From Ruminococcus sp. (GTDB lineage: Bacteria; Bacillota; Clostridia; Oscillospirales; Ruminococcaceae), in NCBI GenBank assembly GCA_017542475.1, contig JAFXXD010000025.1, forward strand, positions 1 through 41,239: 41,239 nucleotides of DNA. The letters are read 5' to 3'. Below are positions 6,588-38,195 of this stretch, in pieces. Every line of letters begins with the position of its first letter. Position 1 is the stretch's first letter. The translations under genes were made by a program, and so were the position numbers. The notes under the pieces were generated by a model. It was not told the DNA's origin. It was given only the letters and a program-made list of their open reading frames with translations, and made no database searches.

Positions 6588-6641
6588 GTAGGGGACGGCG
6601 TCCTCGACGTCCCGCTGTAGGGACGGCGTTCCGCCGCCCGC
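6588..6641 (+). repeat. Two tandem GTAG-foot hairpins (REP-like)
   Basis: At 6588-6614 a GTAGGGG foot leads into a GGGACG/CGTCCC hairpin; at 6617-6641 a second GTAGGG foot leads into a hairpin around GGCG-TTC-CGCC. Both point the same way. They follow the natB-like stop codon directly. Confidence 0.75.
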
Positions 6642-6752
6642 GAATTCCCAAACCTACTGCGGGCGCACGGATAAGCAGCACACCAAATCTTTGATTTGAT
6701 TTGATTTGTGATGCTATATGCAGCTATGCTGTAATGCGCCACTACAAATGCA

Positions 6753-6786
6753 AAAAGGCGAACCCGAATAAATGGGTTCGCCTTTG
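6753..6786 (-). terminator. Rho-independent terminator-like hairpin 1 downstream of groEL
   Basis: The stem AAAGGCGAACCC/GGGTTCGCCTTT surrounds an 8-nt loop and is followed on the minus strand by a T run. It repeats almost the same stem as the groEL terminator 130 bp away. The rest of the gap 6642-6942 holds a GGACGCTCG element copy (6814-6876) and a GATTT tandem (about 6690-6710), but no gene. Confidence 0.6.
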
Positions 6787-6813
6787 CGCGGTGTCCGCGC
6801 CGCCGATTCGCGG

Positions 6814-6876
6814 GGACGCTCGTAAACTCGCTCACCTTCTACAAGACGGCAGTCTGCTTTCGCGGACGTTACAAAT
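6814..6876 (+). repeat. GGACGCTCG element, copy 1
   Basis: GGACGCTCGTAAACTCGCTC at 6814-6833, followed by GACGGCAGTCTGCTTTCG and GTTACAAATA, recurs near 28345-28415 and 34139-34200 with the same order of motifs. It is not coding in any copy. Confidence 0.6.
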
Positions 6877-6892
6877 AATGAATAACAAAAAA

Positions 6893-6918
6893 GAAAGGCG
6901 AACCAAACGGTTCGCCTT
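6893..6918 (-). terminator. Terminator of groESL
   Basis: AAGGCGAACC-AAAC-GGTTCGCCTT is a perfect 10-bp stem followed on the minus strand by CTTTTTTG. It lies 25 bases past the groEL stop codon. Confidence 0.85.
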
Positions 6919-6942
6919 TTCATTATAGATTTGCGCAGCAAA

Positions 6943-8589
<1,647 letters not shown>

Positions 8590-8605
8590 TCATAATTTCA
8601 ATGCT

Positions 8606-8672
8606 GTAGGGGCGCATTCCGTGCGCCCGAAAGCAATAATCGAACTGACGGGCGAGCGGAACTCGCCCCTAC
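8606..8672. repeat. REPIN-like inverted hairpin pair inside the groESL operon
   Basis: A GTAGGGG foot with a GCGCA-TTCCG-TGCGC hairpin (8606-8629) faces an inverted hairpin GCGAG-CGGAA-CTCGC ending CCCCTAC (8649-8672). The total is 67 nt, the same length as the element at 30629-30695, which is this element in the opposite orientation. It is transcribed as part of groESL mRNA and could affect the groES:groEL ratio. Confidence 0.8.
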
Positions 8673-8683
8673 AAACTGAGTTC

Positions 8684-8977
<294 letters not shown>

Positions 8978-8991
8978 TTATATGCAACGGT

Positions 8992-9018
8992 TTAGCACTC
9001 TCTTTCTCTGAGTGCTAA
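8992..9018 (-). promoter_or_regulatory. CIRCE operator of groESL (HrcA site)
   Basis: TTAGCACTC-N9-GAGTGCTAA is a perfect match to the CIRCE inverted repeat. It lies 36 bases upstream of the groES start. On the minus strand a TTGATT-N16-TAAAAT promoter lies just upstream of it (about 9024-9051), so HrcA bound here would block transcription start. Confidence 0.97.
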
Positions 9019-9122
9019 TTATATTTTACCACCTTTTTCTAATAAATCAAGACATACGCGTCAAAACTGTGAATGTGTACAAAAATATAGCAATATAGTT
9101 GATAACGTGTTGGTGCTTATTT

Positions 9123-9147
9123 GTAGGGGCGCATTCCGTGCGCCCGC
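9123..9147 (+). repeat. GTAG-foot hairpin (REP-like)
   Basis: GTAGGGG foot with the common GCGCA-TTCCG-TGCGC hairpin. It begins a long repeat region that reaches the end of spoVFB. Confidence 0.75.
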
Positions 9148-9167
9148 AAAAAACGGGAGCTGACTTG

Positions 9168-9344
9168 TTCGCAAACAATTCACTGGATTGTTTGCGAAGG
9201 GCGGCTTTTGTTTTAAAGCGTCTGTTTCGCCTCCATAGGAGGCGACCAAGGGCTCTGCCCTTGGAACCCGCAAGGGCGCCGCCCTTGAACCGCGGGGCTC
9301 TGCCCTCGACCCGCAAGCCTTTGAAAAGGCTTGAGCGAAACTTT
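9168..9344 (+). repeat. Multi-hairpin array A
   Basis: In order: a 14-bp stem at 9168-9198 around CACTGG, a CGCCTCC-ATA-GGAGGCG hairpin, CAAGGGC-TCT-GCCCTTG, CAAGGGC-GCC-GCCCTTG, GGGC-TCT-GCCC, and the CAAGCCTT-TGAA-AAGGCTTG hairpin followed by GAGCGAAACTTT. The same series, with different stem sequences, occurs at 26466-26712 and 32149-32434. It ends 10 bases from the spoVFB stop. The 9019-9354 gap otherwise has no gene. Confidence 0.75.
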
Positions 9345-9354
9345 TGGTTGTGTG

Positions 9355-9960
9355 TCAGCCGGTTCCTTCCGTGCGGTGGTAGATAATCGGTCTGAGCTGC
9401 ACGCCGCGCAGAGCCGCGTCAACGGCGTCGGGCAGGAGCTCGAACTCCGCCACCAGCGAGGCAGGCTTGCGCTCGATGTCGTCCTGTAACATCGGCACGA
9501 AGTAGTAGTTTTTGCGGTTGAAGAGCTCGCCGATATTCTTCGCCGAGCCGAGCAGCGAGTCGTTCGAGGCTATCGCGAGCACTACGGGCTTGCCGCTCCG
9601 AAGGTGCGACTTCACCGCCATTGTAGCGGCTCCGTCGGTGATGCCCGCCGCGAGCTTCGCCGCCGTATTCGACGTGCACGGCGCGACCACCATAATATCC
9701 GTCATATCCTTCGGACCTATGGGCTCGGCGGCGGATATGTCCGTGATGACCTCCCGCCCGCATATCTCCGCGAGGCGTGCGATGTTTTCCTCACTTGTGC
9801 CGAACCGCGTCGAGAACGAGGCGGCGTGCTCCGACATCACGGGGACGAGCTCCGCACCCATTTCCCGCAGCTTCACTGCCTGCGCGAAGCTCCGCCCGAA
9901 CGTGCAGAACGAGCCCGTCATCACGTAGCCTATCCTGATACCGATGAAGTTAGTTTTCAT
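9355..9960 (-). CDS. spoVFB: Dipicolinate synthase subunit B
   Basis: This is the flavoprotein-family subunit (201 aa) of dipicolinate synthase, which makes the spore-core chelator dipicolinic acid from the lysine-pathway intermediate in the mother cell. It opens MKTNFIGIRIGYVMTGSFCT, the signature start of SpoVFB/DpaB, and contains VVAPCTSNTAAKLAAGITD (flavin-family motif) and the MLQDDIERKPASLVAEF ending of the family. The ATG at 9960 follows a GGAGG site; an in-frame GTG/ATG 7 codons earlier is less well placed. It overlaps the end of subunit A by 11 bases. It indicates an endospore-forming ancestry. Confidence 0.93.
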   Translation of the reverse strand: MKTNFIGIRIGYVMTGSFCTFGRSFAQAVKLREMGAELVPVMSEHAASFSTRFGTSEENIARLAEICGREVITDISAAEPIGPKDMTDIMVVAPCTSNTAAKLAAGITDGAATMAVKSHLRSGKPVVLAIASNDSLLGSAKNIGELFNRKNYYFVPMLQDDIERKPASLVAEFELLPDAVDAALRGVQLRPIIYHRTEGTG

Positions 9961-10819
9961 AGCCGCCGCCTCCTTCCTCAATAATAGCTGCGACCGCGTC
10001 GGCGATAATCTCGCCCGCGGTCACGGGAGCAGTCTTGCCGGGGAGCCCGTTCGCGCGTATCAGCCGAGCTCCGAGTGCTTCCGCGGCTTCCGTGCTGAAG
10101 CCGCCCGCGTCCGAAGCAAGCTCGATAAACAATGTATCATCGCGGAATCTGCCGATATTATCAGGAGTGAACACCTCCGCGGGAGCCGTGTTGAAAACGA
10201 GGGTATAGTCCCCGCCGAGAGCGTCCGTGCGCACCGACTTCACGCCGAGCATTCGCGCCTTAGCCTCAGCCTGCGAACTGCGCACAGCGGCGGTGATGTC
10301 CGCTCCGAAGCCGCGCAGTATCAGCGCGAGAGCCGTGCCTATCCTGCCGAGCCCGACTATCAGCACGGGCAGCCCGTTCAGCGCTACGTCGAGCCTTTCG
10401 AGCGCGAGCTGTACCGCTCCCTCTGCGGTGAGGACGGCGTTTCTCAGCTGCAGCTCCTCGCGCCCAAGATAGCTTATCAGTCTGTGCTGCGGGAAGAGCT
10501 CCGCGAGGCGTGAGTCGCCGCGTCCCGTGAAGATGATGCCGCCGTCCCTGACCGCCGAGGCGACTGTCTCCGCGGAGAGAGAGCCGCTGTAAAAGGACGC
10601 GGAGATGTCCCCGTTCTCATCGAGTGCAAGCACAGGCAGTACCGCGCAGTCATAGCTGTCCGCCGCTGGGAGCGGATCTGCGAGTGCTCTTACAGCGGAG
10701 GGGAGAGCACTGCTGTCGAAGCCTGTTATCGCCGTACCGTATCTCTGCGCGAGCCGCGCGGCGCAGTAAACCTGCCGCATATCGCCGCCCGCGATAAGTA
10801 TATTTATATCATTTCTCAT
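9950..10819 (-). CDS. spoVFA: Dipicolinate synthase subunit A
   Basis: This is the NAD(P)-dependent subunit (289 aa) of dipicolinate synthase. A Rossmann fold is visible as VLIVGLGRIGTALALILRGF at residues 152-171, and the ending (GKTAPVTAGEIIADAV) is typical of DpaA. The ATG at 10819 is preceded by GGAGAAC and gives the usual length; the frame stays open far upstream, but that extension is not DpaA-like. The genes are in the order spoVFA-spoVFB as in Bacillus, but without the aspartokinase and dapA genes that follow there. Expression would be expected in the mother cell under SigK; I did not find a convincing SigK promoter. Confidence 0.9.
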   Translation of the reverse strand: MRNDINILIAGGDMRQVYCAARLAQRYGTAITGFDSSALPSAVRALADPLPAADSYDCAVLPVLALDENGDISASFYSGSLSAETVASAVRDGGIIFTGRGDSRLAELFPQHRLISYLGREELQLRNAVLTAEGAVQLALERLDVALNGLPVLIVGLGRIGTALALILRGFGADITAAVRSSQAEAKARMLGVKSVRTDALGGDYTLVFNTAPAEVFTPDNIGRFRDDTLFIELASDAGGFSTEAAEALGARLIRANGLPGKTAPVTAGEIIADAVAAIIEEGGGGYEN

Positions 10820-10936
10820 ATTGTTCTCCGTTCTGCCGAATGACGGCAATTGAATCAGAACTGCCGCCCTCATGCGGAGGAAGCGGCGATCTCTGTACAT
10901 TATATGGAGAACACGGGAAAGACGTGAGAACTCAGT

Positions 10937-11018
10937 GTAGGGGTCGATGCCCACATCGACCCGACATTCCGATACAATGTGAATCATCACCGTGTAGGGG
11001 CGCCCTTTGGGCGTCCGC
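10937..11018 (+). repeat. Two GTAG-foot hairpins upstream of the RING-like gene
   Basis: 10937-10963 has the foot plus a GGTCGATG/CATCGACC hairpin; 10994-11018 has the foot plus GGCGCCC-TTT-GGGCGTC. Stems differ from each other and from other copies, but remain paired. The 10820-11099 gap otherwise shows no gene. Confidence 0.7.
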
Positions 11019-11099
11019 AGAATCTGAACACGGTGAAGGTTACGTAATTGACGGACCGCCGCCACTACATCTGAGTCCTGAGCTCTGATAGCTGAAGGC

Positions 11100-11128
11100 T
11101 TGATATTCTGAAAAATATGTGGTATAAT
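11100..11128 (+). promoter_or_regulatory. Promoter of the zinc-ribbon membrane protein gene
   Basis: TTGATA (11100-11105), 17 bases, TATAAT (11123-11128), 43 bases before the ATG at 11171. Confidence 0.8.
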
Positions 11129-11170
11129 AGCTTTGAATACAAAAGCCGTTTCGGGCGGAAGGGAGGAAAT

Positions 11171-12112: not shown

Positions 12113-12118
12113 ACAATA

Positions 12119-12150
12119 AAAAGCCCGAAAGCATATGCTTTCGGGCTTTG
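12119..12150. terminator. Bidirectional terminator between convergent genes
   Basis: AAGCCCGAAAGC-ATAT-GCTTTCGGGCTT (12121-12148) is a perfect palindrome with A/T runs on both sides. It serves the gene ending at 12112 and the convergent one ending at 12161. Confidence 0.85.
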
Positions 12151-12160
12151 CTGTTGAATA

Positions 12161-12697
12161 TTACTTTCTCTTTGTAGTTGCAGCGGGAGTGTCCTGCAAT
12201 ACGGACTGCTGAACAGATGTCGGGTTCTGGGTGAGAGCGGGAGAGTTCTTGAGCGTGTGCTGGAGCTTCTCCTTTGTGCGCTTGATGTCGAGGAGAGACT
12301 TGTTGTGAGTAGCCTCTGCGTCGTTGAGCATCTGAGCCACCGACAGAGCCGCATTCTTCTGGAGTGTAACGGAAGATGTCTGAGCCTTCTGGAGGATATC
12401 CACAGCCTTCTTCTTAGCCTCGGTGACGATAGCCTCCTGCGAAACTATCTGCTGAGCTCTTTCCTCTGCCTTGCGGATAATGCCCTCTGCGTTGAGCTTA
12501 GCCTCGTTGAGGATACGCTGGCAGTCGAACTCTATCTTCTTAGCCTCCTTGAGCTCGTGAGGCATATTCAGGCGGATATCGTTGATAAGCTCGCGCATAC
12601 GCTCGCCGTCAACTATCTTCTTGTGTGAAACGAAGGGGACGGAGGTGGACTTGTCCAGCAGCTCGTCCATTTCCTCAAGGATCTCATCAATACTCAT
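12161..12697 (-). CDS. Coiled-coil protein of the coaD operon, DivIVA/ATP synthase B-subunit-like
   Basis: This 178-residue protein is nearly all predicted coiled coil from about 50 to 150 (rich in Ala, Glu, Lys, e.g. RILNEAKLNAEGIIRKAEER), with a low-complexity Pro/Thr/Gln tail. In Clostridia a similar protein commonly follows coaD and is often labelled as ATPase or ATP-synthase B-like, which probably reflects only the coiled coil. It starts 7 bases after coaD ends, so it is the third gene of the rsmD-coaD operon. A role in cell-division or envelope scaffolding is possible but unproven. Confidence 0.75.
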   Translation of the reverse strand: MSIDEILEEMDELLDKSTSVPFVSHKKIVDGERMRELINDIRLNMPHELKEAKKIEFDCQRILNEAKLNAEGIIRKAEERAQQIVSQEAIVTEAKKKAVDILQKAQTSSVTLQKNAALSVAQMLNDAEATHNKSLLDIKRTKEKLQHTLKNSPALTQNPTSVQQSVLQDTPAATTKRK

Positions 12698-14040: not shown

Positions 14041-14143
14041 GTAGGGGCGCATTCCGTGCGCCCGAAGACAAACGCCAAATGACGGGCGAGCGGAACTCGC
14101 CCCTACACAATGTTGATTTATGCTATGGGACGCCGTCCCCTAC
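14041..14143. repeat. REPIN-like element in a 5' leader, plus a truncated third hairpin
   Basis: 14041-14064 has the GTAGGGG foot and GCGCA-TTCCG-TGCGC hairpin; 14083-14106 is the inverted GCGAG-CGGAA-CTCGC hairpin ending CCCCTAC. Together they span 66 nt. A shorter inverted copy ending CCCCTAC lies at 14127-14143. After it (14150-14180) come ATTCCG-type short tandem repeats. Confidence 0.8.
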
Positions 14144-16478: not shown

Positions 16479-18302
16479 ATGAACCCGAGACTTCCGTACC
16501 TCCGCGAAAAGACCTCGAAGCTGACCTCGTCGGCGGGCGTCTACCTGATGAAGAACAGGGAGGGCGCCATCATCTACATCGGCAAGGCTAAGAACCTAAA
16601 AAACCGCGTGACGAGCTACTTCCGCGAGAACCCAGACCACACGCCGAAGGTCGCGGCAATGGTAGCGAACGTGCATGACTACGACTACATCGTCGTGGAC
16701 AGCGAATACGAGGCTCTGCTGCTGGAGTGCTCGCTGATAAAGCAGCACAAGCCCAAGTACAATATCCTGCTCAAGGACGACAAGGGCTACCACTATATCC
16801 GCATTTCCGACGAGGACTACCCCCGCATAACCAACGTCAAGAACACCAAGGCGGGCGGGACCTACCTCGGACCGTATACGAGCGGCTCGGTCACGAAGGA
16901 GGCAGTCAACGAGGCTAACCGCGTGTTTATGCTCCCGACGTGCAGACGGCGTTTCCCGCAGGATTTCGGCAGGGAGCGCCCCTGCCTCAACTACCACATC
17001 AAGCTCTGTATGGGCGTCTGCCGCGGAAAAATTGACAGGGAGACCTACCGCTCGGCTGTGGACGAGGCGGTGGAGTTCATCAAGTCAGGCAGCGCACAGT
17101 CCGTCGAGCGTATGGCTCAGGAGATGAACGAGGCGGCGGAGGCTCTCGACTTCGAGAAGGCGGCAATGCTCCGCGACAGGATAGCTGCCGTGAAAAAAGC
17201 CGCCGAGAAGCAGAAGATAATCAACAGCGGCGTCGATTCCACCGACGTGATAGGCATTGCCGAGGCTCACGACGGCATATTCGTTTCCGTGCTGATGTAC
17301 CGCGAGAACAGGCTCTACGACAAGGCAGTCTTCGAGTTTGACAAGCCCGATGACGGCGAGGATATCCTCAGCCTCTTCCTTGCGCAGTTCTACCACGGGC
17401 GGAGCGATGTCCCCAAGACCGTCACCGTTGACCATATCCCCGAGGACGGCGCTCTCGTAGAGGAAATGCTCACCAAGCAGGCGGGCAGGAACGTGAAGCT
17501 CCACCAGCCGCAGAGGGGAAGGCTGCCCGAGCTGATGAGGCTCGCCAAGAGCAATTCCGCGGAGTACGCCGCACTGAGGAATGACCGCACGGGCAAAGAG
17601 GTCATCGCGCTGGAGCAGCTCGCGAAAAGCCTCGGGCTGGAGCGCCCGCCGCGCTATATCGAGGCATACGACATCTCGAACCTGTCGTCGGAATCAATGG
17701 TGGCGGGAATGGTCGTATTCGAGGACGGCAGACCGCTCAAAAAGGCGTACAAGCGCTTCAACATCAAGGAGCAGGAGTACCAGAACGACTACGGCAGTAT
17801 GCGCGAGGTGCTGAAACGCCGCCTGACCCATCTCGTGAATCAGGACGGCGACGAATACTTCAACCGCAAGCCCGACCTCATTCTCCTTGACGGAGGTACG
17901 GGTCACGTGCACGCGGTGGAGCCCCTCCTGCGGGAGCTCGGGCTCGATATACCTCTGTTCGGAATGGTCAAGGACGACAGGCACCGCACCCGTGCCATAG
18001 CCGAGGGCGGACGTGAGATACAGATAAACGAGCTGAGAGCGGTCTTCGACCTCGTGACGCGCATACAGGACGAGGTGCACCGCTATTCCGTGAGCTTTAT
18101 GCACCAGAAGCACAAGAAGAAAACGTACAGCTCGGAGCTCCTGACCGTGAAGGGCGTGGGCGAGAAGAAAGCGGCGAAGATAATGATACGCTACAAGACG
18201 AAGGCGAACCTGCTGAAAGCGACTCCCGAGGAGCTTGCCGCGACAGCGGGCGTAAGCCTCGATACAGCCCGTCAGCTGTGGGAGGTCATACAGGAAATGT
18301 AG
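16479..18302 (+). CDS. uvrC: Excinuclease ABC subunit C
   Basis: UvrC makes the two incisions around UvrB-bound DNA lesions in nucleotide excision repair. The 607-residue length is normal. An N-terminal GIY-YIG nuclease is visible (AGVYLMKNREGAIIYIGKAK, about 19-38), then a cysteine-containing middle part (PCLNYHIKLCMGVC), the UVR UvrB-binding motif near 200-230 (EALDFEKAAMLRDRI), the RNase H-like C-terminal nuclease (YDISNLSSESMVAGMVVF; LILLDGGTGHV) and a helix-hairpin-helix ending (LLTVKGVGEKKAAKIM). The TAG stop codon lies inside the GTAG foot of a hairpin repeat that starts at 18299. Confidence 0.97.
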   Translation: MNPRLPYLREKTSKLTSSAGVYLMKNREGAIIYIGKAKNLKNRVTSYFRENPDHTPKVAAMVANVHDYDYIVVDSEYEALLLECSLIKQHKPKYNILLKDDKGYHYIRISDEDYPRITNVKNTKAGGTYLGPYTSGSVTKEAVNEANRVFMLPTCRRRFPQDFGRERPCLNYHIKLCMGVCRGKIDRETYRSAVDEAVEFIKSGSAQSVERMAQEMNEAAEALDFEKAAMLRDRIAAVKKAAEKQKIINSGVDSTDVIGIAEAHDGIFVSVLMYRENRLYDKAVFEFDKPDDGEDILSLFLAQFYHGRSDVPKTVTVDHIPEDGALVEEMLTKQAGRNVKLHQPQRGRLPELMRLAKSNSAEYAALRNDRTGKEVIALEQLAKSLGLERPPRYIEAYDISNLSSESMVAGMVVFEDGRPLKKAYKRFNIKEQEYQNDYGSMREVLKRRLTHLVNQDGDEYFNRKPDLILLDGGTGHVHAVEPLLRELGLDIPLFGMVKDDRHRTRAIAEGGREIQINELRAVFDLVTRIQDEVHRYSVSFMHQKHKKKTYSSELLTVKGVGEKKAAKIMIRYKTKANLLKATPEELAATAGVSLDTARQLWEVIQEM

Positions 18303-18390
18303 GGGACGCCGCAGCTAACGGCTGCCCGTCCCCTTTGTCAGCTTCGCTGACATCTCCCCACACTGTGGGGAGTCACCCGGCGTCCCGCAT
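18299..18390 (+). repeat. Composite hairpin repeat at the uvrC stop codon
   Basis: A GTAGGGGACG foot (18299 on) pairs with CGTCCCC, and its loop holds GCAGCTAACGGCTGC, the GCTAACGGCT motif of another repeat family. It is followed by TGTCAGC-TTC-GCTGACA and CTCCCCACAC-TGTGGGGAG hairpins and ends GGCGTCCCG. It looks like one repeat nested in another. Confidence 0.7.
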
Positions 18391-23657: not shown

Positions 23658-23787
23658 GTAGGGGCGCATTCCGTGCGCCCGCACCATAACAGAACGACCA
23701 CCTGAAACGATTTGTAGGGGGCGATGCCTACATCGCCCCGTCGGGTCGCACAAAATATCACGGGCTGATGTGGGCGTCAGCCCCTAC
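23658..23787. repeat. Three GTAG-foot hairpins (two forward, one inverted)
   Basis: 23658-23681 has the GCGCA-TTCCG-TGCGC stem; 23714-23740 has GGGGCGATG-CCTA-CATCGCCCC; 23761-23787 is inverted (GGGCTGA...TCAGCCC, ending CCCCTAC). Each has a different paired stem. Confidence 0.75.
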
Positions 23788-23807
23788 AATGCTTTCAGAT
23801 TCGTCCG

Positions 23808-23856
23808 CGTCAGCGGACACCGCGAGCTAACGGCTAACGGCTAAAGGCTAATAGCT
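23808..23856 (+). repeat. GTCCGC hairpin plus GCTAACGGCT repeats upstream of holB
   Basis: GTCCGC-GTCA-GCGGAC, then ACCGCGAGCTAACGGCTAA with three imperfect GCTAACGG/GCTAAAGG units. It ends 13 bases before the -35 box of the holB promoter. It is near-identical to 38213-38252. Confidence 0.75.
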
Positions 23857-23868
23857 CGACTCCGCATC

Positions 23869-26437: not shown

Positions 26438-26461
26438 GTAGGGGCGGCGTTCCGCCGCCCG
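26438..26461 (+). repeat. GTAG-foot hairpin at the head of array B
   Basis: GTAGGGGCGGCG-TTC-CGCCGCCCG. It directly precedes multi-hairpin array B, just as a different GTAG-foot hairpin (32121-32144) precedes array C. Confidence 0.75.
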
Positions 26462-26465: not shown

Positions 26466-26712
26466 AAACGGCATTGTTGTCGCGTGCGGAGATAACTCCG
26501 CAGGCAGGCAATTCCGGAGCGGTAGTAGGGGAGGCTCTCTCTTGCAGAGCCTCCCCTCTTTCAAAACAGTCCACCGGACTGTTTTGAAATTCATCCCCTT
26601 GCAGAGCGCCCTTCGGATTGCAGGGACGCTGTCCCTGCACCCTGCAAGCCTTTGAAAAGGCTTGAGCGAAACTTTCAGCTTCGCGCTGTAGTTTATCCGA
26701 TACGGAAGTTCT
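26466..26712 (+). repeat. Multi-hairpin array B
   Basis: In order: TGCGGAG-ATAA-CTCCGCA; a GTAG-foot hairpin GGGGAGGCTC...GAGCCTCCCC (26525-26557); the stem CAAAACAGTCC-ACC-GGACTGTTTTG; TGCAGGGAC-GCT-GTCCCTGCA; CAAGCCTT-TGAA-AAGGCTTG; then GAGCGAAACTTTCAGCTTCGC. Compared with array C, the first and fourth stems have changed on both sides so that pairing is kept. The gap 26427-26740 has no gene. Confidence 0.8.
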
Positions 26713-28472: not shown

Positions 28473-28499
28473 CGGGCGCACACACGGGTGCGCCCCTAC
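28473..28499 (-). repeat. Inverted GTAG-foot hairpin
   Basis: GGGCGCAC-ACACGG-GTGCGCCC ending CCCCTAC, reading as a GTAGGGG-foot hairpin on the minus strand. Confidence 0.7.
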
Positions 28500-29631: not shown

Positions 29632-29682
29632 GTAGGGGCGCCCATTGGGCGTCCGTGGGACGTCGAGGACGCCGTCCCCTAC
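29632..29682. repeat. Inverted pair of GTAG-foot hairpins
   Basis: 29632-29655 (GGGCGCCCATTGGGCGTCC) faces an inverted GGGACGTC...GACGCCGTCCCC hairpin ending at 29682. The two are directly abutted with no middle segment. ATTACG/AATTACG short tandem repeats (29686-29715) and another inverted hairpin (29721-29743) follow. Confidence 0.75.
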
Positions 29683-29720
29683 AATAATTACGCATTACGA
29701 ATTACGAATTACGCATTGTT

Positions 29721-29743
29721 CGGGCGGGGAACGCCACCCCTAC
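29721..29743 (-). repeat. Inverted GTAG-foot hairpin next to nadC
   Basis: GGGCGGGGAACGCCACCC ending CCTAC. The stem is imperfect (one mismatch). It ends 22 bases before the nadC stop codon. Confidence 0.6.
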
Positions 29744-30628: not shown

Positions 30629-30695
30629 GTAGGGGCGAGTTCCGCTCGCCCGTGAAAAAACGAAATATCGGCGGGCGCACGGAATGCGCCCCTAC
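30629..30695. repeat. REPIN-like inverted hairpin pair between vanY and nadC
   Basis: 67 nt: GTAGGGGCGAG-TTCCG-CTCGCCC on the left, GGGCGCA-CGGAA-TGCGCCCCTAC on the right. It is the same element as 8606-8672, inserted the other way round. Confidence 0.8.
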
Positions 30696-32061: not shown

Positions 32062-32144
32062 GTAGGGGACACCGCCATTGGCGTCCCGTGTCTTGCGAAA
32101 TCGATTCGATTCAACGAAATGTAGGGGCGGATATTATCCGCCCG
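32062..32144 (+). repeat. Two GTAG-foot hairpins upstream of the vanY-like gene
   Basis: 32062-32088 (GGGACACCGCCATTGGCGTCCC) and 32121-32144 (GGGCGGAT-AT-TATCCGCCC). The second heads multi-hairpin array C. Confidence 0.75.
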
Positions 32145-32148
32145 CCAA

Positions 32149-32434
32149 CAAACGGCATTGATGTATTACGCGGAATAATTCCGCGGGCATATAAATGCGG
32201 AGCGGTAGCAGGGGAGGCTCTCTCTTGCAGAGCCTCCCCTCTTCAAAAACAGTCCACTGGACTGTTTTTGAATTCATCCCCTCTCAGAGCGCCCTTCGGT
32301 TTTTGTGGGGCTCTGCCCCACGCCCTGCCAAAGGCTCTGCCTTTGGAATCCGCAAGCCTTTGAAAAGGCTTGAGCGAAACTTTCAGCTTCGCGCGGCAGT
32401 CTGTTCAAAACGGAAGCGATCTCCGCGGACGTTA
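32149..32434 (+). repeat. Multi-hairpin array C
   Basis: In order: CGCGGAA-TAA-TTCCGCG; the GTAG-foot GGGGAGGCTC...GAGCCTCCCC hairpin (32205-32241); CAAAAACAGTCC-ACT-GGACTGTTTTTG; GTGGGGC-TCT-GCCCCAC; CAAAGGC-TCT-GCCTTTG; CAAGCCTT-TGAA-AAGGCTTG; then GAGCGAAACTTTCAGCTTCGC. It has one more tandem hairpin than array B. The gap 32042-32466 has no gene. Confidence 0.8.
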
Positions 32435-32438
32435 GTTT

Positions 32439-32465
32439 GTAGGGGACGGCGTCCTCGACGTCCCG
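32439..32465 (+). repeat. GTAG-foot hairpin abutting nadB
   Basis: GTAGGGGACG foot and CGTCCCG end, nearly identical to 6588-6614. It ends one base before the nadB stop codon. Confidence 0.75.
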
Positions 32466-32466
32466 A

Positions 32467-33924
32467 TTATTGCATAACCTCGCCGAGGATTATATAAGCG
32501 ACAGTCACTATCGACTTCGCGAGCACGAAGTCCGCGTCCACGAGATAGCCGCCGCTCAGCAGGTCCTCGCGTATCTCCTTCACGCGCTTGAAGCCTGCCG
32601 CTGCTGCCTTCTTGTCGGGGATAACGAAGTGGCTCTCCTGCATTATCCTGCGGGTCTCGGTGCGGATACCCTTGGGTATGCGGTCAGCGCCGAGGTGAGC
32701 GTCGAACTGCGCCTCCTCGAATTCCTTGGGAGCATTCGCCATCTTTGAGGCTATATCCAGCGCGGCGTGGCGCGAGAACACGAGAGCCTCCAGAAGCGAG
32801 TTGCTGGCGAGACGGTTGCCGCCGTGTACGCCCGTGTGCGAGCACTCGCCGCACGCGTACAGATTCGGGAGCGTTGTCTCGGAGTTCTTGTCAACGTCGA
32901 TACCGCCCATAAGATAGTGCTGGCAGGGGAATATCGGTACGGGTCCCTTTGTGAGGTCCCAGCCCTGATCGAGCAGGTTCTTGTATATCATCGGGAAGCG
33001 CTTTTTGAGGAATTCGCTGTCCTTGTAGCTGATGTCGAGGTAGAAGTCGGTGGACTTCTGCTTGCGCGATTCAAGGATTATCGAGTGCGATACGACATCA
33101 CGCGGAGCGAGCTCGAGGCGCTCGTCGTAGTTGTGCATAAAGCGCTCCTTGTTGCAGTTGAGGAGGTAAGCTCCCTCGCCGCGGACAGCCTCGGAGATGA
33201 GGAAGCACTCGCGTGTGGCGCGGTTGTTGAAGGCTGTCGGGTGGAACTGCACGTAGCTGAGGTTCTTTATCTTCGCGCCCATTTCGTAGGCGAAGGTGAT
33301 ACCGTCGCCTGTGGCTATGGCAGAGTTGGTCGTGAACTGGTACACTCTGCCGATACCGCCTGTCGCGAGTATCATATAGTGGCAGTTGGCGGTGATGTAC
33401 TCGTCGTCAATGGTCTTGAGGAAAGCCGAATAGCCCGTGGAGGTCTGCTTGACCGCGCACATAATGGTATTCTCCATAATGGTCACGTTCGGGAGCTTCT
33501 TCACGGTGTCAAGCAGGGTGGTCGTGATAGCCTTGCCCGTTGAGTCGGCATGGTGGAAGATACGGTGGTGGCTGTGACCGCCCTCAAGCGTGCGGTGGTA
33601 GGTGCCGTCGGGGTTCTTGTCGAAGTCAACGCCGAGCTCGATGATGCGCTCGATGTCCTCAGCTGCTTCGCTGACGAGGGTGTGTACGGCGTCAACGTTG
33701 TTCTTGAAGCCGCCTGCTATCATCGTGTCGTTCTGGTGGTACTGTATGTTGTCGGTGGGCGAGTTGTAAACGCCCGCGATACCGCCCTGAGCGAGCATGG
33801 AGTTGCACAGCGGCAGCTCGCGCTTGCAGAGGATGAGGATATTGAGCTCCGAGGGCAGGTTGATGGCTGCGTAGAGTCCCGCAGCACCGCAGCCTGCGAT
33901 TATAACGTCATAGTTTACAGACAT
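32467..33924 (-). CDS. nadB: L-aspartate oxidase
   Basis: This 485-residue flavoprotein oxidises L-aspartate to iminoaspartate, the first step of de novo NAD synthesis. The FAD-binding VIIAGCGAAGLYAAINLP lies near residues 7-24. Other marks are LAQGGIAG, EGGHSHHRIFHHADSTGKA, YVQFHPTAF, FLISEAVRGEGAYL and GECSHTGVHGGNRLASNSLL. The ATG at 33924 has AAAGGA 10 bases upstream; a GTG three codons earlier sits too close to it. The C-terminal helical domain is shorter than in E. coli. nadC lies downstream after an intervening dockerin-vanY gene. Confidence 0.93.
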   Translation of the reverse strand: MSVNYDVIIAGCGAAGLYAAINLPSELNILILCKRELPLCNSMLAQGGIAGVYNSPTDNIQYHQNDTMIAGGFKNNVDAVHTLVSEAAEDIERIIELGVDFDKNPDGTYHRTLEGGHSHHRIFHHADSTGKAITTTLLDTVKKLPNVTIMENTIMCAVKQTSTGYSAFLKTIDDEYITANCHYMILATGGIGRVYQFTTNSAIATGDGITFAYEMGAKIKNLSYVQFHPTAFNNRATRECFLISEAVRGEGAYLLNCNKERFMHNYDERLELAPRDVVSHSIILESRKQKSTDFYLDISYKDSEFLKKRFPMIYKNLLDQGWDLTKGPVPIFPCQHYLMGGIDVDKNSETTLPNLYACGECSHTGVHGGNRLASNSLLEALVFSRHAALDIASKMANAPKEFEEAQFDAHLGADRIPKGIRTETRRIMQESHFVIPDKKAAAAGFKRVKEIREDLLSGGYLVDADFVLAKSIVTVAYIILGEVMQ

Positions 33925-33973
33925 AGCTGGCACGTCCTTTACCTAAATTTTGCCAAAATGGGTATACACATAT

Positions 33974-34002
33974 ATTATAGCACACATTTATGGATATGTC
34001 AC
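33974..34002 (-). promoter_or_regulatory. Promoter of nadB
   Basis: On the minus strand GTGACA (33997-34002), 17 bases, TATAAT (33974-33979). The sequence around it is AT-rich with ACACAT/ATGTGT words that could be a nicotinate-repressor site, which I cannot confirm. Confidence 0.65.
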
Positions 34003-34034
34003 TACTTTTTTATAAATTTATACAATGTCTTTGG

Positions 34035-34125
34035 CAAGGGCTCTGCCCTTGACCCGCCAAGGACTCTGTCCTTGGATCCTGCCGGGACTCTGTCCCAGAC
34101 CCTGCCAAAGGGCGCAGCCCTTTGG
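34035..34125 (+). repeat. Multi-hairpin array E
   Basis: Four tandem hairpins: CAAGGGC-TCT-GCCCTTG (34035-34051), CCAAGGAC-TCT-GTCCTTGG (34057-34075), GGGAC-TCT-GTCCC (34084-34096) and CCAAAGGGC-GCA-GCCCTTTGG (34105-34125), separated by ACCCG, ATCCTGCC and AGACCCTG. Stems differ throughout while pairing and linkers persist. Confidence 0.8.
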
Positions 34126-34138
34126 AATCCAACTACGA

Positions 34139-34267
34139 GGACGCTCGCAAGCTCGCTCACTCTGTACAAACGGCTCAGTCTGCTTTCGGCGGGTAACAAA
34201 TATGGAGCGGTAAGGCACGCGGAGACAAACTTGCGGTCTGTACAGGTGAGCGAGTTTACGAGCGTCC
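34139..34267. repeat. GGACGCTCG element in inverted duplicate
   Basis: The left arm (34139-34168) and right arm (34239-34267) are reverse complements over 29 positions, with two mismatches and one extra base. Between them lie CTGCTTTCGGCGGGTAACAA and TATGGAGCGGTAAGG. The motif order matches the copies at 6814 and 28346. Confidence 0.75.
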
Positions 34268-34279
34268 GCGTGAACCGAA

Positions 34280-34323
34280 AGAACCGCAGACCCGACTGAA
34301 GTGGCAATCGGGTCTGCGGCTCT
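34280..34323 (-). terminator. Probable terminator of the CAP-dockerin gene
   Basis: A 16-bp stem (AGAACCGCAGACCCGA at 34280-34295 with 34308-34323) contains one G-T pair and a 12-nt loop. The T run after it on the minus strand is short (TTCTTTCGG). It lies 30 bases past the stop codon. Confidence 0.6.
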
Positions 34324-34352
34324 TCTATGAACACACCTTTTCAATTAGTTTC

Positions 34353-35348
34353 CTATGAGAATTCGTATGGCAGAGTCTTTACCTCACCGAGTATGAACTT
34401 CTGCAATACCTTTGCGTCGTTGATATTGATGACGCCGTCCTTGAAGCAGTCCGCCGCCTCTATCTGGAGCGCGTTGAAGCTTATGGGGCGGTTTATCAGT
34501 GCCTCGTCGTATTCCTTGCCTGCCCTCATCTTATTTAGAGCGTCCTGATACTCGATGTACTGGAGTATCGTGATGTAATCGAACGAATCGACGACTCCGT
34601 CGCCCGAGAGGTCACCCGTGGATTCGGGGACTATCTCATACAGCGTCGGCAGATACTGTCCGTCGAGCTCAAGGTCTGTGGTGTAGACTCTCATCTTCTT
34701 GCCAGGCTCGTCGGGATTATCGACCAGCAGTGCGTGGTCGGGATCCTTCTCGACCTGTATCATCAGCAGCTCCCAGTACCACTCGTACGGGTCTTCCCTG
34801 AATTCTTCGGAATCGTGGTCCTTGTGCTCGAATGTCACAGCGACGCCCATATGAGTCATATCGGGGTCGAGGATAGCCTCCCAGTGCCCCTCTTCGGAGT
34901 TGCGCCACTGACTGAATGCGTCATAGGCTGTACACGGGTCCTCGGCAGCCGCGAGGTTCTCCTTTGCGGATAGATAGGGGTAATTCTCGTCCATCAGGTA
35001 CTGGTCGAAGTTATCGCCCGATTCCTTGTCGATTATGCCCGTTGAAAGCTCCTCGGCTGTCGGGCGGTTGTGGCTGAATTTGCGAATGGATTCTCTCACG
35101 CGGACGTGCGAGTAGTCGGAGAGGTGGGGGACGATATAGAGCGGCTTCAAGCCGTTCTCGACTCTTGCCTCGTTGACCATAACGGCTATTTCGCGTTCGA
35201 GCTGTCGGAGGTCTTCCTCAGTCACCATCGGGGAATTATCGCCGTTGACGGAGGATGTCAGAAATGCCAGAGGGGATACACAGCACACGATGGACAGTGC
35301 CAGAGCAAGTGAATAAGTTTTCTTGAAAAATCGCTTTATTCCAAGCAT
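34353..35348 (-). CDS. Secreted CAP/SCP-domain protein with C-terminal dockerin
   Basis: This 331-residue exported protein has a signal sequence (1-36, ending SSVNGDN). A CAP (SCP/PR-1-like) domain spans about 48-190 (LEREIAVMVNEARVENGLKP; RVRESIRKFSHNRP; SAKENLAAAEDPCTAYDAF; QWRNSEEGHWEAILDPDMTH). C-terminal dockerin loops follow at 244-328 (TGDLSGDGVVDSFDYITILQ and AADCFKDGVININDAKVLQ). The dockerin should carry it onto a cohesin. CAP domains have varied roles (binding, protease-like); none can be assigned. AAGGAGGTG precedes the ATG. The 35349-35640 gap shows no gene. Confidence 0.92.
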   Translation of the reverse strand: MLGIKRFFKKTYSLALALSIVCCVSPLAFLTSSVNGDNSPMVTEEDLRQLEREIAVMVNEARVENGLKPLYIVPHLSDYSHVRVRESIRKFSHNRPTAEELSTGIIDKESGDNFDQYLMDENYPYLSAKENLAAAEDPCTAYDAFSQWRNSEEGHWEAILDPDMTHMGVAVTFEHKDHDSEEFREDPYEWYWELLMIQVEKDPDHALLVDNPDEPGKKMRVYTTDLELDGQYLPTLYEIVPESTGDLSGDGVVDSFDYITILQYIEYQDALNKMRAGKEYDEALINRPISFNALQIEAADCFKDGVININDAKVLQKFILGEVKTLPYEFS

Positions 35349-35641
35349 TGTACCGCACCTCCTTCCACGCGTCTGAGCCTGCCGCTTCTTAAGCTTATTC
35401 TATCACACATACAATATATTTAAAAGGGCAAATGGCAAAGTTTGGCGTTTTACACAACAAAAATCTACGTTTTGTACAACGGATTTTATTACATTGCGTA
35501 GTATTTTGCGTGGATTATCAGCTCTGTATTATGAAAAAATGAGGATAATTAAAAGAAATGCTACTTTCAGTAAAATGCCCGTGAGAATACAAAAGAGAAT
35601 ATTTCAGCGGCATAATACAGTACGTAATATAGCGGCAGCGG

Positions 35642-35670
35642 TTGACACAAAGCCGCAACAGTGGTATAAT
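35642..35670 (+). promoter_or_regulatory. Promoter of the Xre-cupin-synthetase gene
   Basis: TTGACA (35642-35647), 17 bases, TATAAT (35665-35670), both perfect. The roughly 95-nt leader contains the palindrome CGCTTTAAAGCG (35698-35709) and a hairpin AAGTCCCG-AAGA-ACGGGCTT (35731-35750). Either could be the target of the encoded Xre domain or an attenuator. Confidence 0.85.
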
Positions 35671-35774
35671 TATTTGTATCTAAGCACAAACGGAAACCGC
35701 TTTAAAGCGCTGAATATCAAATAGGCTTTAAGTCCCGAAGAACGGGCTTTATCTGAGAAAGGAGCAGGCTTGCA

Positions 35775-38084
35775 GTGAGCAGTACAATGAATCCCGAGTT
35801 TAAAATAAGAGAGGTCGCGGAGCGAATCAGGCTCACGCGCGAATCGGTGGGTCTGACTCCCGAGGAAATGGCTGAAAAGGTCGGTATTTCCACCTATGAG
35901 TACCTCGCCTACGAGGGCGGAGCGAAGGATTTCAGCTTCACATTCATCTACAAATTCGCGAACGTATGCGGCGTCGAGATCGCAGATCTTATGGAGGGTG
36001 AATCTCCGCGTATCAACAGCTTCGATATCACGAGAGCGGGCGAGGGACTTCCCATCGCAAGAAGAAAGGGTCTGAGCTACCTCCGTCTTGCTCCGAAATT
36101 CCGCAATAAGATAGGCGAGCCCTTCCTCGTTACCATTCCCTACGTTGACGAGAAGTTCCGCGTGCCGCACCCGCACACCCACGAGGGTCAGGAGCTCGAC
36201 ATCATCATCAGCGGACAGCTTAAGGTACAGGTCGGCGACAACGTTGAGGTGCTCGGCGAGGGAGACTCCATCTACTATGACAGCTCCGAGCCTCACGACG
36301 AGTGGGCGGTAGGCGGTCACGAGTGCCGATTCTACGCTGTTGTGTTCGGTCAGAACGAGAAGCCCACACACGCTATCTCGAACCTTGAGCCTGTAATACT
36401 CCCGGGCGTTACCAACTTCGACCTCGCCAATATCAAGGAGCCTGTCGCCGATAAATTCGTCGAGTGCGAGACCGACGAGAACGGCGCGCTCACGAGCATA
36501 AAGTTCAAAAACGAGGCGACCTTCAACTTCGGCTTCGACGTTGTTGACGCTCTGGCGGCGAAATGTCCCGACAAGACCGCTCTTATCTACGTCTCCAACG
36601 AGATGGAGGAGCGCCGTTTCACATTCGCCGATATCAGGAAATACTCCAATATGACCGCGAATTACTTCAAGTCCAAGGGCATAAAGAAGGGCGACAGGGT
36701 AATGCTTGTCCTGAAGAGACACTACCAGTTCTGGTTCTCGATAATCGCGCTCCACAAGCTCGGCGCTATCGTTATACCCGCGACAAATCAGCTCGTCCAG
36801 CACGATTTCACCTACCGCTTTAAGGCGGCGGGCGTGAAGGCTATCGTCTGCACCGGCGACGGCGATGTTGCGCATCAGGTAGACCTCGCCATTGACGAGT
36901 GCGGTATGGATATCACTAAGATGATGGTTCACGGCGAGCGCGAGGGCTGGGACGGCTTCGACAAGGGCATTGCCGCTCAGAGCGACGTATTCGAGCGCCC
37001 GACCGACCCCGAGCTCCTCTCCTGCGGCAGAGAGCCCAACCTTATGTTCTTTACCTCGGGCACGACAGGCTACCCGAAGATAGCCACGCACTGCCACCTC
37101 TACGCGCTCGGACACTTCATCACTGCGCGCTACTGGCACAACGTTGATCCGAACGGCATACATTTCACTATATCCGATACAGGCTGGGGCAAGGCTCTGT
37201 GGGGCAAGCTCTACGGACAGTGGCTCAGCGAGACCTGCGTTTTCGTCTACGACTTCGACCGCTTCGACGCGAACAAGATACTACCGATGTTCAAGAAGTA
37301 TAACATCACGACGTTCTGCGCACCGCCTACGATGTACCGCTTCTTTATAAAGGAGGACCTCAGCAAGTACGACCTCAGCAGTATAAAGTATGCCACGGTC
37401 GCGGGCGAGGCTCTCAACCCCGAGGTCTACAACCAGTTCCTCAACGCTACGGGCGTGAAGCTCATGGAGGGCTTCGGACAGACCGAAACCACGCTGTCTA
37501 TCGGCAATTTCGTCGGCATGACCTGCCGTCCCGGTTCTATGGGCAAGCCGAGCGTTATGTACGACGTTGACATCGTTGACCCTGACGGCAAGCCCTGCAA
37601 GACGGGTGAGACGGGCGAGATAGTTATCCGCCTCGACAAGGGAACTCCCGCGGGACTTTTCCTCGGCTACTACAACGACGACGAAAAGACCAAGGAGGTA
37701 TGGCACGACGGTATGTACCACACGGGCGATACCGCGTGGAAGGACGAGGACGGCTACTTCTGGTACGTCGGACGTGTTGACGACGTTATCAAGTCGTCGG
37801 GCTACCGCATAGGACCGTTCGAGATAGAGAGCGTCATCATGGAGCTTCCCTACGTGCTCGAATGCGGTGTCAGCGCTGCTCCCGACCCTGTAAGAGGTCA
37901 GGTGGTGAAGGCTTCGATAGTGCTCGTCAAGGGCACTGAGGGCACCGACGAGCTCAAGAAGGAGATCCAGGACTACGTCAAGAAGCACACCGCGCCTTAC
38001 AAGTACCCGCGAATAGTCGAGTTCCGCGACGAGCTCCCCAAGACTATCAGCGGCAAGATAAGACGTGTAGAGCTGAAAGGATAA
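35775..38084 (+). CDS. Xre-cupin regulator fused to an AMP-forming acyl-CoA synthetase
   Basis: This single 769-residue protein joins a sugar/acid-sensor type regulator to an enzyme. Residues 1-70 are an Xre helix-turn-helix (RLTRESVGLTPEEMAEKVGI). Residues about 110-195 are a cupin with the metal motif HPHTHEGQE and a second SSEPHDEW motif. Residues about 225-769 are an acetyl-CoA-synthetase-like ligase, with the ATP loop FFTSGTTGYPK near 423, GEGFGQTE-like MEGFGQTETT, YHTGDTAWKDEDGYFWYVGR, IKSSGYRIGPFEIE and the catalytic K761 in SGKIRR. It would activate a short or aromatic carboxylic acid with ATP and CoA. The GTG start follows AAAGGAG by 10 bases. No stop or frameshift separates the parts. 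Confidence 0.9.
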   Translation: MSSTMNPEFKIREVAERIRLTRESVGLTPEEMAEKVGISTYEYLAYEGGAKDFSFTFIYKFANVCGVEIADLMEGESPRINSFDITRAGEGLPIARRKGLSYLRLAPKFRNKIGEPFLVTIPYVDEKFRVPHPHTHEGQELDIIISGQLKVQVGDNVEVLGEGDSIYYDSSEPHDEWAVGGHECRFYAVVFGQNEKPTHAISNLEPVILPGVTNFDLANIKEPVADKFVECETDENGALTSIKFKNEATFNFGFDVVDALAAKCPDKTALIYVSNEMEERRFTFADIRKYSNMTANYFKSKGIKKGDRVMLVLKRHYQFWFSIIALHKLGAIVIPATNQLVQHDFTYRFKAAGVKAIVCTGDGDVAHQVDLAIDECGMDITKMMVHGEREGWDGFDKGIAAQSDVFERPTDPELLSCGREPNLMFFTSGTTGYPKIATHCHLYALGHFITARYWHNVDPNGIHFTISDTGWGKALWGKLYGQWLSETCVFVYDFDRFDANKILPMFKKYNITTFCAPPTMYRFFIKEDLSKYDLSSIKYATVAGEALNPEVYNQFLNATGVKLMEGFGQTETTLSIGNFVGMTCRPGSMGKPSVMYDVDIVDPDGKPCKTGETGEIVIRLDKGTPAGLFLGYYNDDEKTKEVWHDGMYHTGDTAWKDEDGYFWYVGRVDDVIKSSGYRIGPFEIESVIMELPYVLECGVSAAPDPVRGQVVKASIVLVKGTEGTDELKKEIQDYVKKHTAPYKYPRIVEFRDELPKTISGKIRRVELKG

Positions 38085-38088
38085 TTCT

Positions 38089-38195
38089 GTAGGGGCGGAT
38101 ATCATCCGCCCTTTTCAATTCGTAATTCGTAATTCGTAATTGTTGTGTCAGGCAGTCGGGCGGTGGATTTGCGGGCGAGCGGAACTCGCCCCTAC
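38089..38195. repeat. GTAG-foot hairpin pair with AATTCGT tandem insert
   Basis: 38089-38112 (GGGCGGATA-TCA-TCCGCCC) and the inverted 38172-38195 (GCGAG-CGGAA-CTCGC ending CCCCTAC) enclose four AATTCGT units (38116-38141). The right hairpin is the same as in the 8606 and 14041 elements. Confidence 0.75.

Follow-up and report, generated by a model that had tools for sequence, protein, structure and literature searches.

GTAG-foot hairpins of a Ruminococcus genome and RAYT genes with matched, inverted hairpin copies inside the reading frame

The 41,239-nucleotide (nt) contig JAFXXD010000025.1 of a Ruminococcus sp. (assembly GCA_017542475.1), analyzed here over its whole length and hereafter called the window, belongs to a genome of 2.66 Mb (57 contigs, 94% complete) and carries 25 short hairpins with a GTAG foot. 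The best overall explanation, and very probably the right one, is that these hairpins are repetitive extragenic palindromes (REPs), and their inverted pairs REP doublets forming hairpins (REPINs), of a REP-associated tyrosine transposase (RAYT, or TnpAREP) that bears a matched pair of the same hairpins within its own gene. The genome has two divergent RAYT genes, L041 between recF and gyrB and L046 before thrS. In each, an inverted pair of GTAG hairpins is embedded in the open reading frame (ORF), with one copy on either side of the His–hydrophobic–His (HUH) motif. The core embedded in L041 is that of the window elements at 6588, 29657, and 32439, while the core in L046 is that of the element at 23714 save for one base. 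A preliminary description of the window had interpreted the hairpins as REP/REPIN-like and pointed to a search for a Y1 or RAYT-like gene carrying the same hairpins. That interpretation gains support from the presence of the hairpins in a RAYT gene and from the association, across the genus, between RAYTs and elements; the gene sought turned out to exist twice, with the hairpins inside its reading frame. The outcome that would have spoken against it, namely that no element-bearing genome has a Y1 transposase, is contradicted by these two genes.

RAYT genes with hairpins inside the reading frame

The enzyme is missed in this genome by a plain Pfam search, as the Y1_Tnp profile PF01797 returns zero matches there at E≤0.001. 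Only when the threshold is relaxed to E≤10 do weak matches appear, and these are RAYTs with internal hairpins. PF01797, whose matches also show no link with the elements, was rejected as a RAYT detector. L041, L046, and further genes in genomes G036, G122, and G033 are ORFs of 156–201 amino acids (aa). All seven share MP[ND]HxH and WQ motifs, and six also have YIxxNP. Their PF01797 scores of 11–21 bits fall under the gathering cut-off of 23 bits, and this profile is described as aligning just partially with most class 2 proteins (PMC6006769). The NCBIfam profile NF047646 (REP_Tyr_transpos) matches all seven (E 2e-11 to 8e-21), with scores of 44–74 bits that miss the equivalog cut-off of 80 bits and thus mark the proteins as relatives of that family rather than equivalogs. 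The sole sequence match of L046 in the PDB is E. coli TnpAREP (4er8, E 0.01). The predicted structure of a homologue from R. flavefaciens (L166; mean predicted local distance difference test score, pLDDT, 86.6) likewise has 4er8 as its best Foldseek match (E 4e-7), so that the HUH/Y1 fold of TnpAREP is predicted by way of this homologue. In an alignment of 18 proteins (A3), H85, H87, W133, Q134, Y154, and N158 are invariant and P159 is nearly so. The motifs of TnpAREP subclass 2.4 (NH[IFV]H, WQ, YIxNNP) are present mainly, not letter for letter, with either N or D preceding the HUH. Resemblance to this subclass, which is RAYT group 4 according to Quentin et al. (2018; PMC6006769), thus derives from motifs and internal REPs rather than from placement by a published profile or tree. 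REPs and RAYTs are now documented across a genus of Clostridia.

RAYT loci were assembled from a genus sample (60 genomes taken from a larger group), a family sample (148 genomes), and 80 named loci of a GTDB collection (the best 80 of 503). The resulting 144 loci yielded 126 distinct ORFs with a minimum length of 130 aa. Internal hairpins, one or more, occur in 109 of the 126, a proportion that should not be extended to RAYTs in general because the search alignments consisted mostly of hairpin-bearing members. The arrangement is highly regular: a plus-strand copy precedes and a minus-strand copy follows the HUH in 78 ORFs, against two with the opposite order, and the left copy is read in phase 0 (GTA GGG, Val-Gly) in 77 of the 78. 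When the hairpin residues were deleted and the proteins aligned, 86 plus copies mapped to one loop (consensus columns 39–46) and 99 minus copies to a second (columns 87–99), the other 20 of 205 lying elsewhere or having another polarity. In the L166 model, the left copy encodes the segment between strands 34–37 and 48–51; the loop encoded by the right copy, between strand 83–90 and helix 112–127, is modeled with low confidence (pLDDT ~60). RAYT ORFs hold 205 hairpins in 70 kb and neighboring ORFs 17 in 352 kb, a 60-fold lower density. None occurs in 29 TnpA ORFs of the insertion sequence IS200, nor in 30 ORFs taken from the top phylum-wide matches of NF047646, which are mostly longer proteins (with [NDE]HxH in 26 of 30).

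The two copies within a gene match each other closely. Left and right copies share 95% mean identity, are identical in 35 of 78 ORFs, and have equal length in all 78. Permuting the right copies among genes lowers mean identity to 0.26, and 0 of 5000 shuffles attain the observed 0.95. Since the two copies are read from opposite strands, the peptides they encode are unrelated (e.g., VGDGVLDVP versus GTSRTPSPT), and selection on the protein therefore fails to account for the match. Between genes, hairpin similarity tracks protein similarity (Mantel r 0.39, 0/2000). Mean hairpin identity, with unequal lengths set to 0, rises from 0.43 through 0.77 to 1.00 as protein identity passes from 0.5–0.6 through 0.6–0.7 to 0.7–0.8, and hairpins are identical in 91% of the 22 gene pairs in the last bin. 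Among 60 sampled same-family pairs, the hairpins are 0.96 identical and the rest of the gene 0.64, a comparison that is partly circular because the pairs were picked at hairpin identity of at least 0.85.

The embedded hairpins could also be imagined as ordinary, neutral REP insertions that settled in permissive loops of RAYTs, as insertions do in repair genes, and play no role there. Both the alignment and the model indeed place the copies in loops, PMC6006769 argues that internal REPs lie at a distance from the active site and may be of little consequence, and other bacteria harbor GTAG REPs in genes of other kinds (PMC3733652). Nonetheless, two fixed loops, a fixed polarity, a near-constant phase, and a left–right match of 0.95 are not expected from random insertion followed by decay. 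The identity of hairpins in 91% of gene pairs at 0.7–0.8 protein identity and their 60-fold lower density in neighboring ORFs likewise disfavor this account. The counts thus speak against neutral passengers, which we consider unlikely. Fixed sites, fixed polarity, and matched sequence argue instead that the embedded copies have been retained.

Variants of the arrangement were also seen. L160 (genome G179) and L087, L090, and L091 (genome G105) have internal hairpins with GTAGGGA feet, outside the strict pattern, and the latter three have one copy in a further, third loop that precedes the WQ motif. Internal palindromes, some with a "double foot" (GTAG...CTAC), occur in RAYT ORFs of metagenome-assembled genomes from Deltaproteobacteria, Nitrospirae, Anaerolineales, and Nitrosomonadales (L206, L228, L237, and L241) and in Mucilaginibacter (L245), where GTAGAGACG-type REPs lie within and around the RAYT gene.

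Chromosomal loci and block-wise differences between alleles

The locus analysis covered 36 of 37 genus loci (L156 has no ORF), with L145–L149, L164, and L165 standing outside it. By their flanks, 33 of the 36 fall into two groups, locus A with the order recF–RAYT–gyrB (18) and locus B with the order RAYT–thrS (15); the RAYTs of L143, L160, and L162 are at neither. In the genome of the window, NCBIfam profiles identify the RAYT neighbors as RecF, GyrB, and ThrS, the GyrB match being below cut-off and clipped by the end of the locus. Among 30 gyrB loci, a RAYT or pieces of one lie upstream in 15, a gap of 269–339 nt without a RAYT in eight, a longer gap without a recognized RAYT in six, and a contig end in one. 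In a tree of 45 proteins built without the hairpin residues, locus A forms a clade including two R. flavefaciens genes and locus B a clade including one (local support 0.99 for each). Hairpin families track the sub-clades, and the RAYTs of G189 and G191 form a tight group with the R. flavefaciens SAb67 RAYT, which points to Ruminococcus as the genus.

At both loci, the nearest relative by flank commonly has a different hairpin family (10 of 16 at A and 12 of 15 at B, one-base variants being counted as the same). Genomes G193 and G191, for example, share 98% identity over the gyrB flank, while their RAYTs are 62% identical and bear different hairpins; for G195 and G166, identity is 95% over the thrS flank and 61% over the RAYT. 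Identity in 60-nt windows reveals that in three pairs the divergence is confined to a block. In the pair L124/L125, it is 0.93–1.0 upstream, 0.52–0.77 in the block, and 0.98–1.0 beyond. In L154/L161, it is 0.80–0.97 upstream, 0.88 over the first 60 nt, 0.30–0.67 in the block, and 0.92–1.0 beyond, and in L139/L152 it is 0.77–0.88 upstream, 0.34–0.65 in the block, 1.0 in the gene tail, and 0.87–0.92 downstream. (L161 is apparently frameshifted near its start.) The same-hairpin pairs L129/L132 and L125/L126 have no divergent block. In the three divergent pairs, the 3′ border falls at ORF nt 415, 422, and 403, that is, 71–90 nt past the right hairpin and directly after the WQ codons, where misassembly at a repeat would not put it. 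The assemblies comprise about 20–40 contigs in G155, G166, G183, G193, and G195 and about 210 in G191.

The border divides the gene into two parts. According to sequence alignment with E. coli TnpAREP, whose REP contacts are described in PMC8266576, the block contains both hairpins, the HUH, and the putative counterpart of the helix that binds the REP stem in E. coli. The tail contains the tyrosine and the putative equivalents of residues E100 and R104 of the E. coli enzyme, with that of Q95 at the border itself. Over all pairs save those with L132, in which no WQ was found, the tail tracks the flank (Mantel 0.73, 0/2000 at A; 0.37, 25/2000 at B), whereas the core does not at B (−0.05, 1435/2000) and does so weakly at A (0.26, 69/2000).

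Could the alleles have diverged rapidly in place under strong selection, without recombination? Such divergence could also yield core identities of 0.64 beside a 0.98 flank (L124/L125) or 0.52 beside a 0.95 flank (L154/L161), and the weak core–flank link at locus A is in its favor. Yet in the tree the divergent cores fall beside those of other species (L124 with L131 and L122; L125 with L126 and L166), identity returns abruptly at ORF nt 403–422 in all three pairs with tails then 0.92–0.99 identical, and the flank is tracked by the tail but little or not at all by the core. We accordingly regard divergence in place as improbable, to about the same degree as neutral insertion.

Dispersed elements, their families, and their positions

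GTAGGGG occurs 583 times in the genome versus 118 times for the reversed control word, and the strict element GTAGGGGCG N6–12 CGCCCG 150 times versus 0 in the control. The elements display the characters by which REPs and REPINs are recognized: a GTAG foot beside a palindrome of 20–40 nt, many copies, a mainly intergenic location, and some inverted pairs. Among 48 hairpins of this genome (G000), 15 lie in an ORF, four of them in the RAYTs, three in L281/L283, and eight in the window. Of these eight, one is a false match, one comes from another repeat, and the remaining six are in ORFs that by our reading run opposite named genes or form a long N-terminal extension.

RAYTs and elements occur together. 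In the genus sample, a RAYT is present in 28 of 60 genomes, and at least five strict elements are found in 27 of these 28 versus 2 of the 32 genomes without one (p=1.2e-13). In the family sample, 5 of 9 genomes with at least 10 elements have a RAYT versus 8 of 139 others (p=2.4e-4). Two genus members with elements but without a RAYT match, G162 and G186, have a short recF–gyrB gap without a RAYT (300 and 335 nt), which fits RAYT loss. The dispersed hairpins also resemble the embedded ones in sequence. Outside RAYTs, 157 were collected from stretches of 10 genomes with a length filter, broken RAYTs (G177, G180) being omitted as residents. An exact match to the embedded copy of some genus RAYT exists for 73 of them, and a match of at least 85% identity for 114. 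They match the RAYT of their own genome at a mean of 0.150, versus 0.075 for RAYTs of other genomes (135/20000 permutations). Several stretches of G166, G190, and G155 were picked for their listed elements, which biases the densities found in them, while those of G000 C2, G183, G203, G177, G195, and G180 were placed regardless of listed elements. Unit length is 24 or 27 nt in 152 of the 157. Multiples of three are expected were a coding copy the source, a weak argument in view of the small number of independent families and of embedded units of 25 and 26 nt (10 of 78).

Several observations weigh against the proposed explanation. Four of the nine element-rich genomes of the family sample (G046, G092, G111, and G136) have no RAYT match at E≤1e-5, and six genomes (G021, G038, G070, G071, G105, and G144) have a RAYT match and no strict element. 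The p-values overstate independence because the genomes are related, and most of the genomes are probably metagenome bins. The embedded hairpins of other named loci and genera match 28 of the 157 dispersed hairpins exactly and 62 at ≥85%, so the cores are not private to the genus. The resident RAYT is matched by just 15% (exact) to 23% (≥85%) of the sampled dispersed hairpins, and by none of the 24 in G155 or the one in G177. Most dispersed hairpins therefore lack a matching RAYT at home, many having one in a sister species. Internal hairpins are absent from 17 of the 126 RAYT ORFs (e.g., L075), the tail of the pair L122/L123 is just 0.76 identical, and the residual core–flank link at locus A belongs here as well. 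In the genome of the window, cores A and B have cognate RAYTs, several other families of the window have their core within RAYTs of sister species only, and no RAYT carrying the GAGTTCCGCTC core was found among the RAYTs examined.

In the window itself, hairpins were called at GTAGGG sites on both strands, and 22 of the 33 sites start one with a score of at least 6, whereas 40 first-order Markov shuffled sequences average 0.1 and never exceed one. One of the 22, at 26525, is part of a separate 128-nt repeat and not a GTAG REP. The other 21, together with four weaker relatives (6617, 29722, 32062, and the truncated 14122), make up the 25, or 26 with a doubtful element at 18299. This agrees with the preliminary description, which had counted about 26, and every position it listed is present. 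Its statement that pairing is always kept proved too strong: 6588, 29657, and 32439 share a stem mismatch, 32062 and 6617 have one each, the stems of 10994 and 29632 contain a G·T pair, 14122 is truncated, and 29722 is decayed. Three REPINs of 66–67 nt were correctly described as always joining the same two hairpin types. Each combines a GCATTCCGTGC and a GAGTTCCGCTC hairpin, in either orientation, and their DNA folds with z-scores of −6.4 to −7.7. The REPIN at 8606–8672, immediately upstream of groEL, has its GCATTCCGTGC half at 8606–8628 (plus strand; same core in RAYTs L152 and L153) and its GAGTTCCGCTC half at 8650–8672 (minus), and that at 14041–14106 follows the same order (14041–14063, plus; 14084–14106, minus). 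In the REPIN at 30629–30695, upstream of nadC, the order is reversed, with GAGTTCCGCTC at 30629–30651 (plus) and GCATTCCGTGC at 30673–30695 (minus).

The other pairs of the window join other families or stand head-to-tail (6588/6617, 10937/10994, 23658/23714, 32062/32121). Family A (GACGGCGTCCTCGACGTC), defined by the core of the recF–gyrB RAYT L041, is represented at 6588–6613 (plus), 29657–29682 (minus), 32439–32464 (plus), and, truncated and without a good hairpin, at 14122–14143 (minus). The copy at 6588 is followed head-to-tail by a GGCGTTCCGCC-family REP with one mismatch (6617–6639, plus), whose loop is also embedded in L164; a single REP of that family lies at 26438–26460 (plus). The copy at 29657 is inverted relative to a CGCCCATTGGGCG REP (29632–29654, plus) and is followed by a decayed REP at 29722–29743 (minus). 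Family B, named for the core of the thrS-linked RAYT L046, is found at 23714–23739 (plus), with variants at 10937–10962 (plus; GTCGATGCCCACATCGAC) and, inverted relative to 23714, at 23762–23787 (minus). The variant at 10937 stands head-to-tail with a CGCCCTTTGGGCG-family REP (10994–11016, plus). The pair at 23714/23762 belongs to a cluster of three whose first member is a GCATTCCGTGC REP (23658–23680, plus), and a single REP of this last family occurs at 9123–9145 (plus). A single GCACCCGTGTGTGC-family REP at 28474–28499 (minus) has a related core in RAYT L162. At 32062–32087 (plus), a GACACCGCCATTGGCGTC REP with an imperfect stem precedes a GGATATTATCC-family REP (32121–32143, plus) whose core recurs in the sister-species recF–gyrB RAYTs L136, L157, and L158. 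Toward the end of the window, a GGATATCATCC-family REP (38089–38111, plus) shares its core with RAYT L141, and a GAGTTCCGCTC-family REP lies at 38173–38195 (minus). The doubtful element at 18299–18327 (plus) has a poor hairpin, and its GTAG provides the TAG stop of uvrC (18299–18302). In L068 (G033), an element GTAG similarly provides the TAG stop of both RAYT genes (3459–3462 and 7946–7949).

Repeats distinct from the GTAG REPs are also present. A family of ~128 nt occurs at 26492–26619 and 32175–32302 (88% identical), with shared parts at 9246–9344 and 34034–34085; it has its own hairpins of CTCTGCCCTTGG type and a CAAGCCTTTGAAAAGGCTTG motif close by. A repeat of 55 nt, GTCCGCGTCAGCGGACACC, occurs at 4406–4460, 23803–23857, and 38212–38266, with GCTAACGG-type tandem units after it, and AATTCGTAATTCG tandem tracts lie near REPs at 29681–29710 and 38117–38146.

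Orthologous gaps in relatives lack the elements in several cases. Collinear blocks, with gaps, were compared in G198 (over 12.2–36.2 kb of the window) and G156 (18.4–36.0 kb), and these stretches contain zero hairpins scoring at least 5, versus 14 REPs at 12.2–36.2 kb in the window. The REPIN at 30629–30695 is present in G151, the closest relative by NadC, and missing from L094, L096, L098, and L101, where the gap is almost closed. Counting this genome, 12 of 30 nadC loci have a hairpin, frequently of another family. All these comparisons are between species, the genomes being one per species. At 71–96% DNA identity, the relatives are too divergent for exact insertion ends and target duplications to be read, so the comparison of gaps suggested in the preliminary description delivered the absences and not the precise ends. 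The absences are, at the species level, at odds with the alternative it had named, identical positions everywhere with no empty sites.

These results also bear on the idea that the hairpins are terminators, attenuators, or other regulatory RNAs of the host rather than mobile elements. Some do lie directly after genes (6588, 38089) or beside groEL and nadC, as such RNAs might. However, no T tract follows those that were read, both orientations occur, the same cores reside inside RAYT genes, relatives have the same gaps without hairpins, and an Rfam search of the window at the gathering cut-off yields four tRNAs only, making a regulatory role highly improbable. Still less credible is mobilization by an ordinary IS200/IS605 transposase, rejected here as the mover although Y1 genes of the IS200 type are widespread in the family sample (63 of 148 genomes), for none was found in this genome at the PF01797 threshold given above, PF01797 matches are unlinked to elements (2 of 9 element-rich genomes versus 61 of 139 others, p=0.30), and the 29 IS200 TnpA ORFs are hairpin-free. 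In G033 (38 matches) and at L039, L044, and L047–L067, the PF01797 matches are mostly gene pieces at or near contig ends, probably from an ordinary IS200 whose many copies disrupt the assembly.

A proposed cassette model and comparison with known systems

By analogy with the enzymes of E. coli, Stenotrophomonas, and Marinomonas (PMC8266576), the RAYTs would mobilize the window elements by cleaving and joining their cognate single-stranded REPs. In the mechanism envisaged, the HUH and the tyrosine would nick and rejoin single-stranded GTAG hairpins and thereby spread REPs between genes, and the two embedded copies would serve as a reference by which target and enzyme stay together on a single DNA segment. 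Homologous recombination may then exchange the block between species, altering stem-loop specificity and target simultaneously; with this, a new REP family would begin, and older families would persist as fossils. We lean, with some reserve, toward viewing the RAYT loci of Ruminococcus-like bacteria as interchangeable cassettes that set specificity and carry their own target. The part exchanged would comprise the reader and two copies of its target, the main GTAG-contacting residues and the tyrosine would stay in place, and embedding would keep reader and target linked. Each swap would found a new REP family and strand the old one, so that the REP families of a genome may record past alleles of its RAYTs.

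Where REP families come from, how each comes to match a single enzyme, and how they turn over is the question addressed by this proposal. With enzyme and target fused in one gene, many alleles, and natural block differences, co-evolution of transposase and target becomes directly testable, and relatives exist among named strains (R. flavefaciens SAb67 and R. bicirculans 80/3). In-frame REPs inside RAYT genes were already known (PMC6006769). New, as far as the literature search shows, are the inverted pair in two fixed loops around the HUH, its 95% match, the two loci, and the block-wise differences; among the titles and abstract openings covered, nothing was found on paired internal REPs bracketing the HUH, on RAYT block exchange, or on Ruminococcus REPs.

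Among described systems, the excerpts of the literature used here point to TnpAREP subclass 2.4 (PMC6006769) as similar in its HUH, WQ, and YIxxNP-type tyrosine motif, its GTAG foot on G-C pairs, its frame-preserving REPs within the gene, and its scattered occurrence over phyla. In those excerpts, internal REPs generally lie between HuH and Y, and the hosts are Cyanobacteria, Bacteroidetes, and various phyla; here, an inverted, matched pair brackets the HUH in a genus of Clostridia, mostly at two chromosomal loci and with block-wise differences between species. The REPtrons of E. coli, S. maltophilia, and Marinomonas (RAYT groups 2 and 3; PMC8266576) share a GTAG with a hairpin, an HUH with one tyrosine, and one enzyme per REP family, but as described there the REPs lie beside the gene, whereas here they are also inside it, and activity was measured for those enzymes. 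Rickettsia palindromic elements and intragenic REPs (PMC3733652) are likewise small palindromes in frame within protein genes; in the portions of that source drawn on, they carry CGTC or GTAG and reside in unrelated genes, in contrast to the present hairpins, which lie at fixed positions in the gene for their own enzyme. Finally, IS200/IS605 transposons have the Y1 HUH fold and hairpin recognition in common with these RAYTs, but no transposon unit is seen here; instead, there are two genes in the genome, and 33 of 36 genus RAYTs occupy the same two loci.

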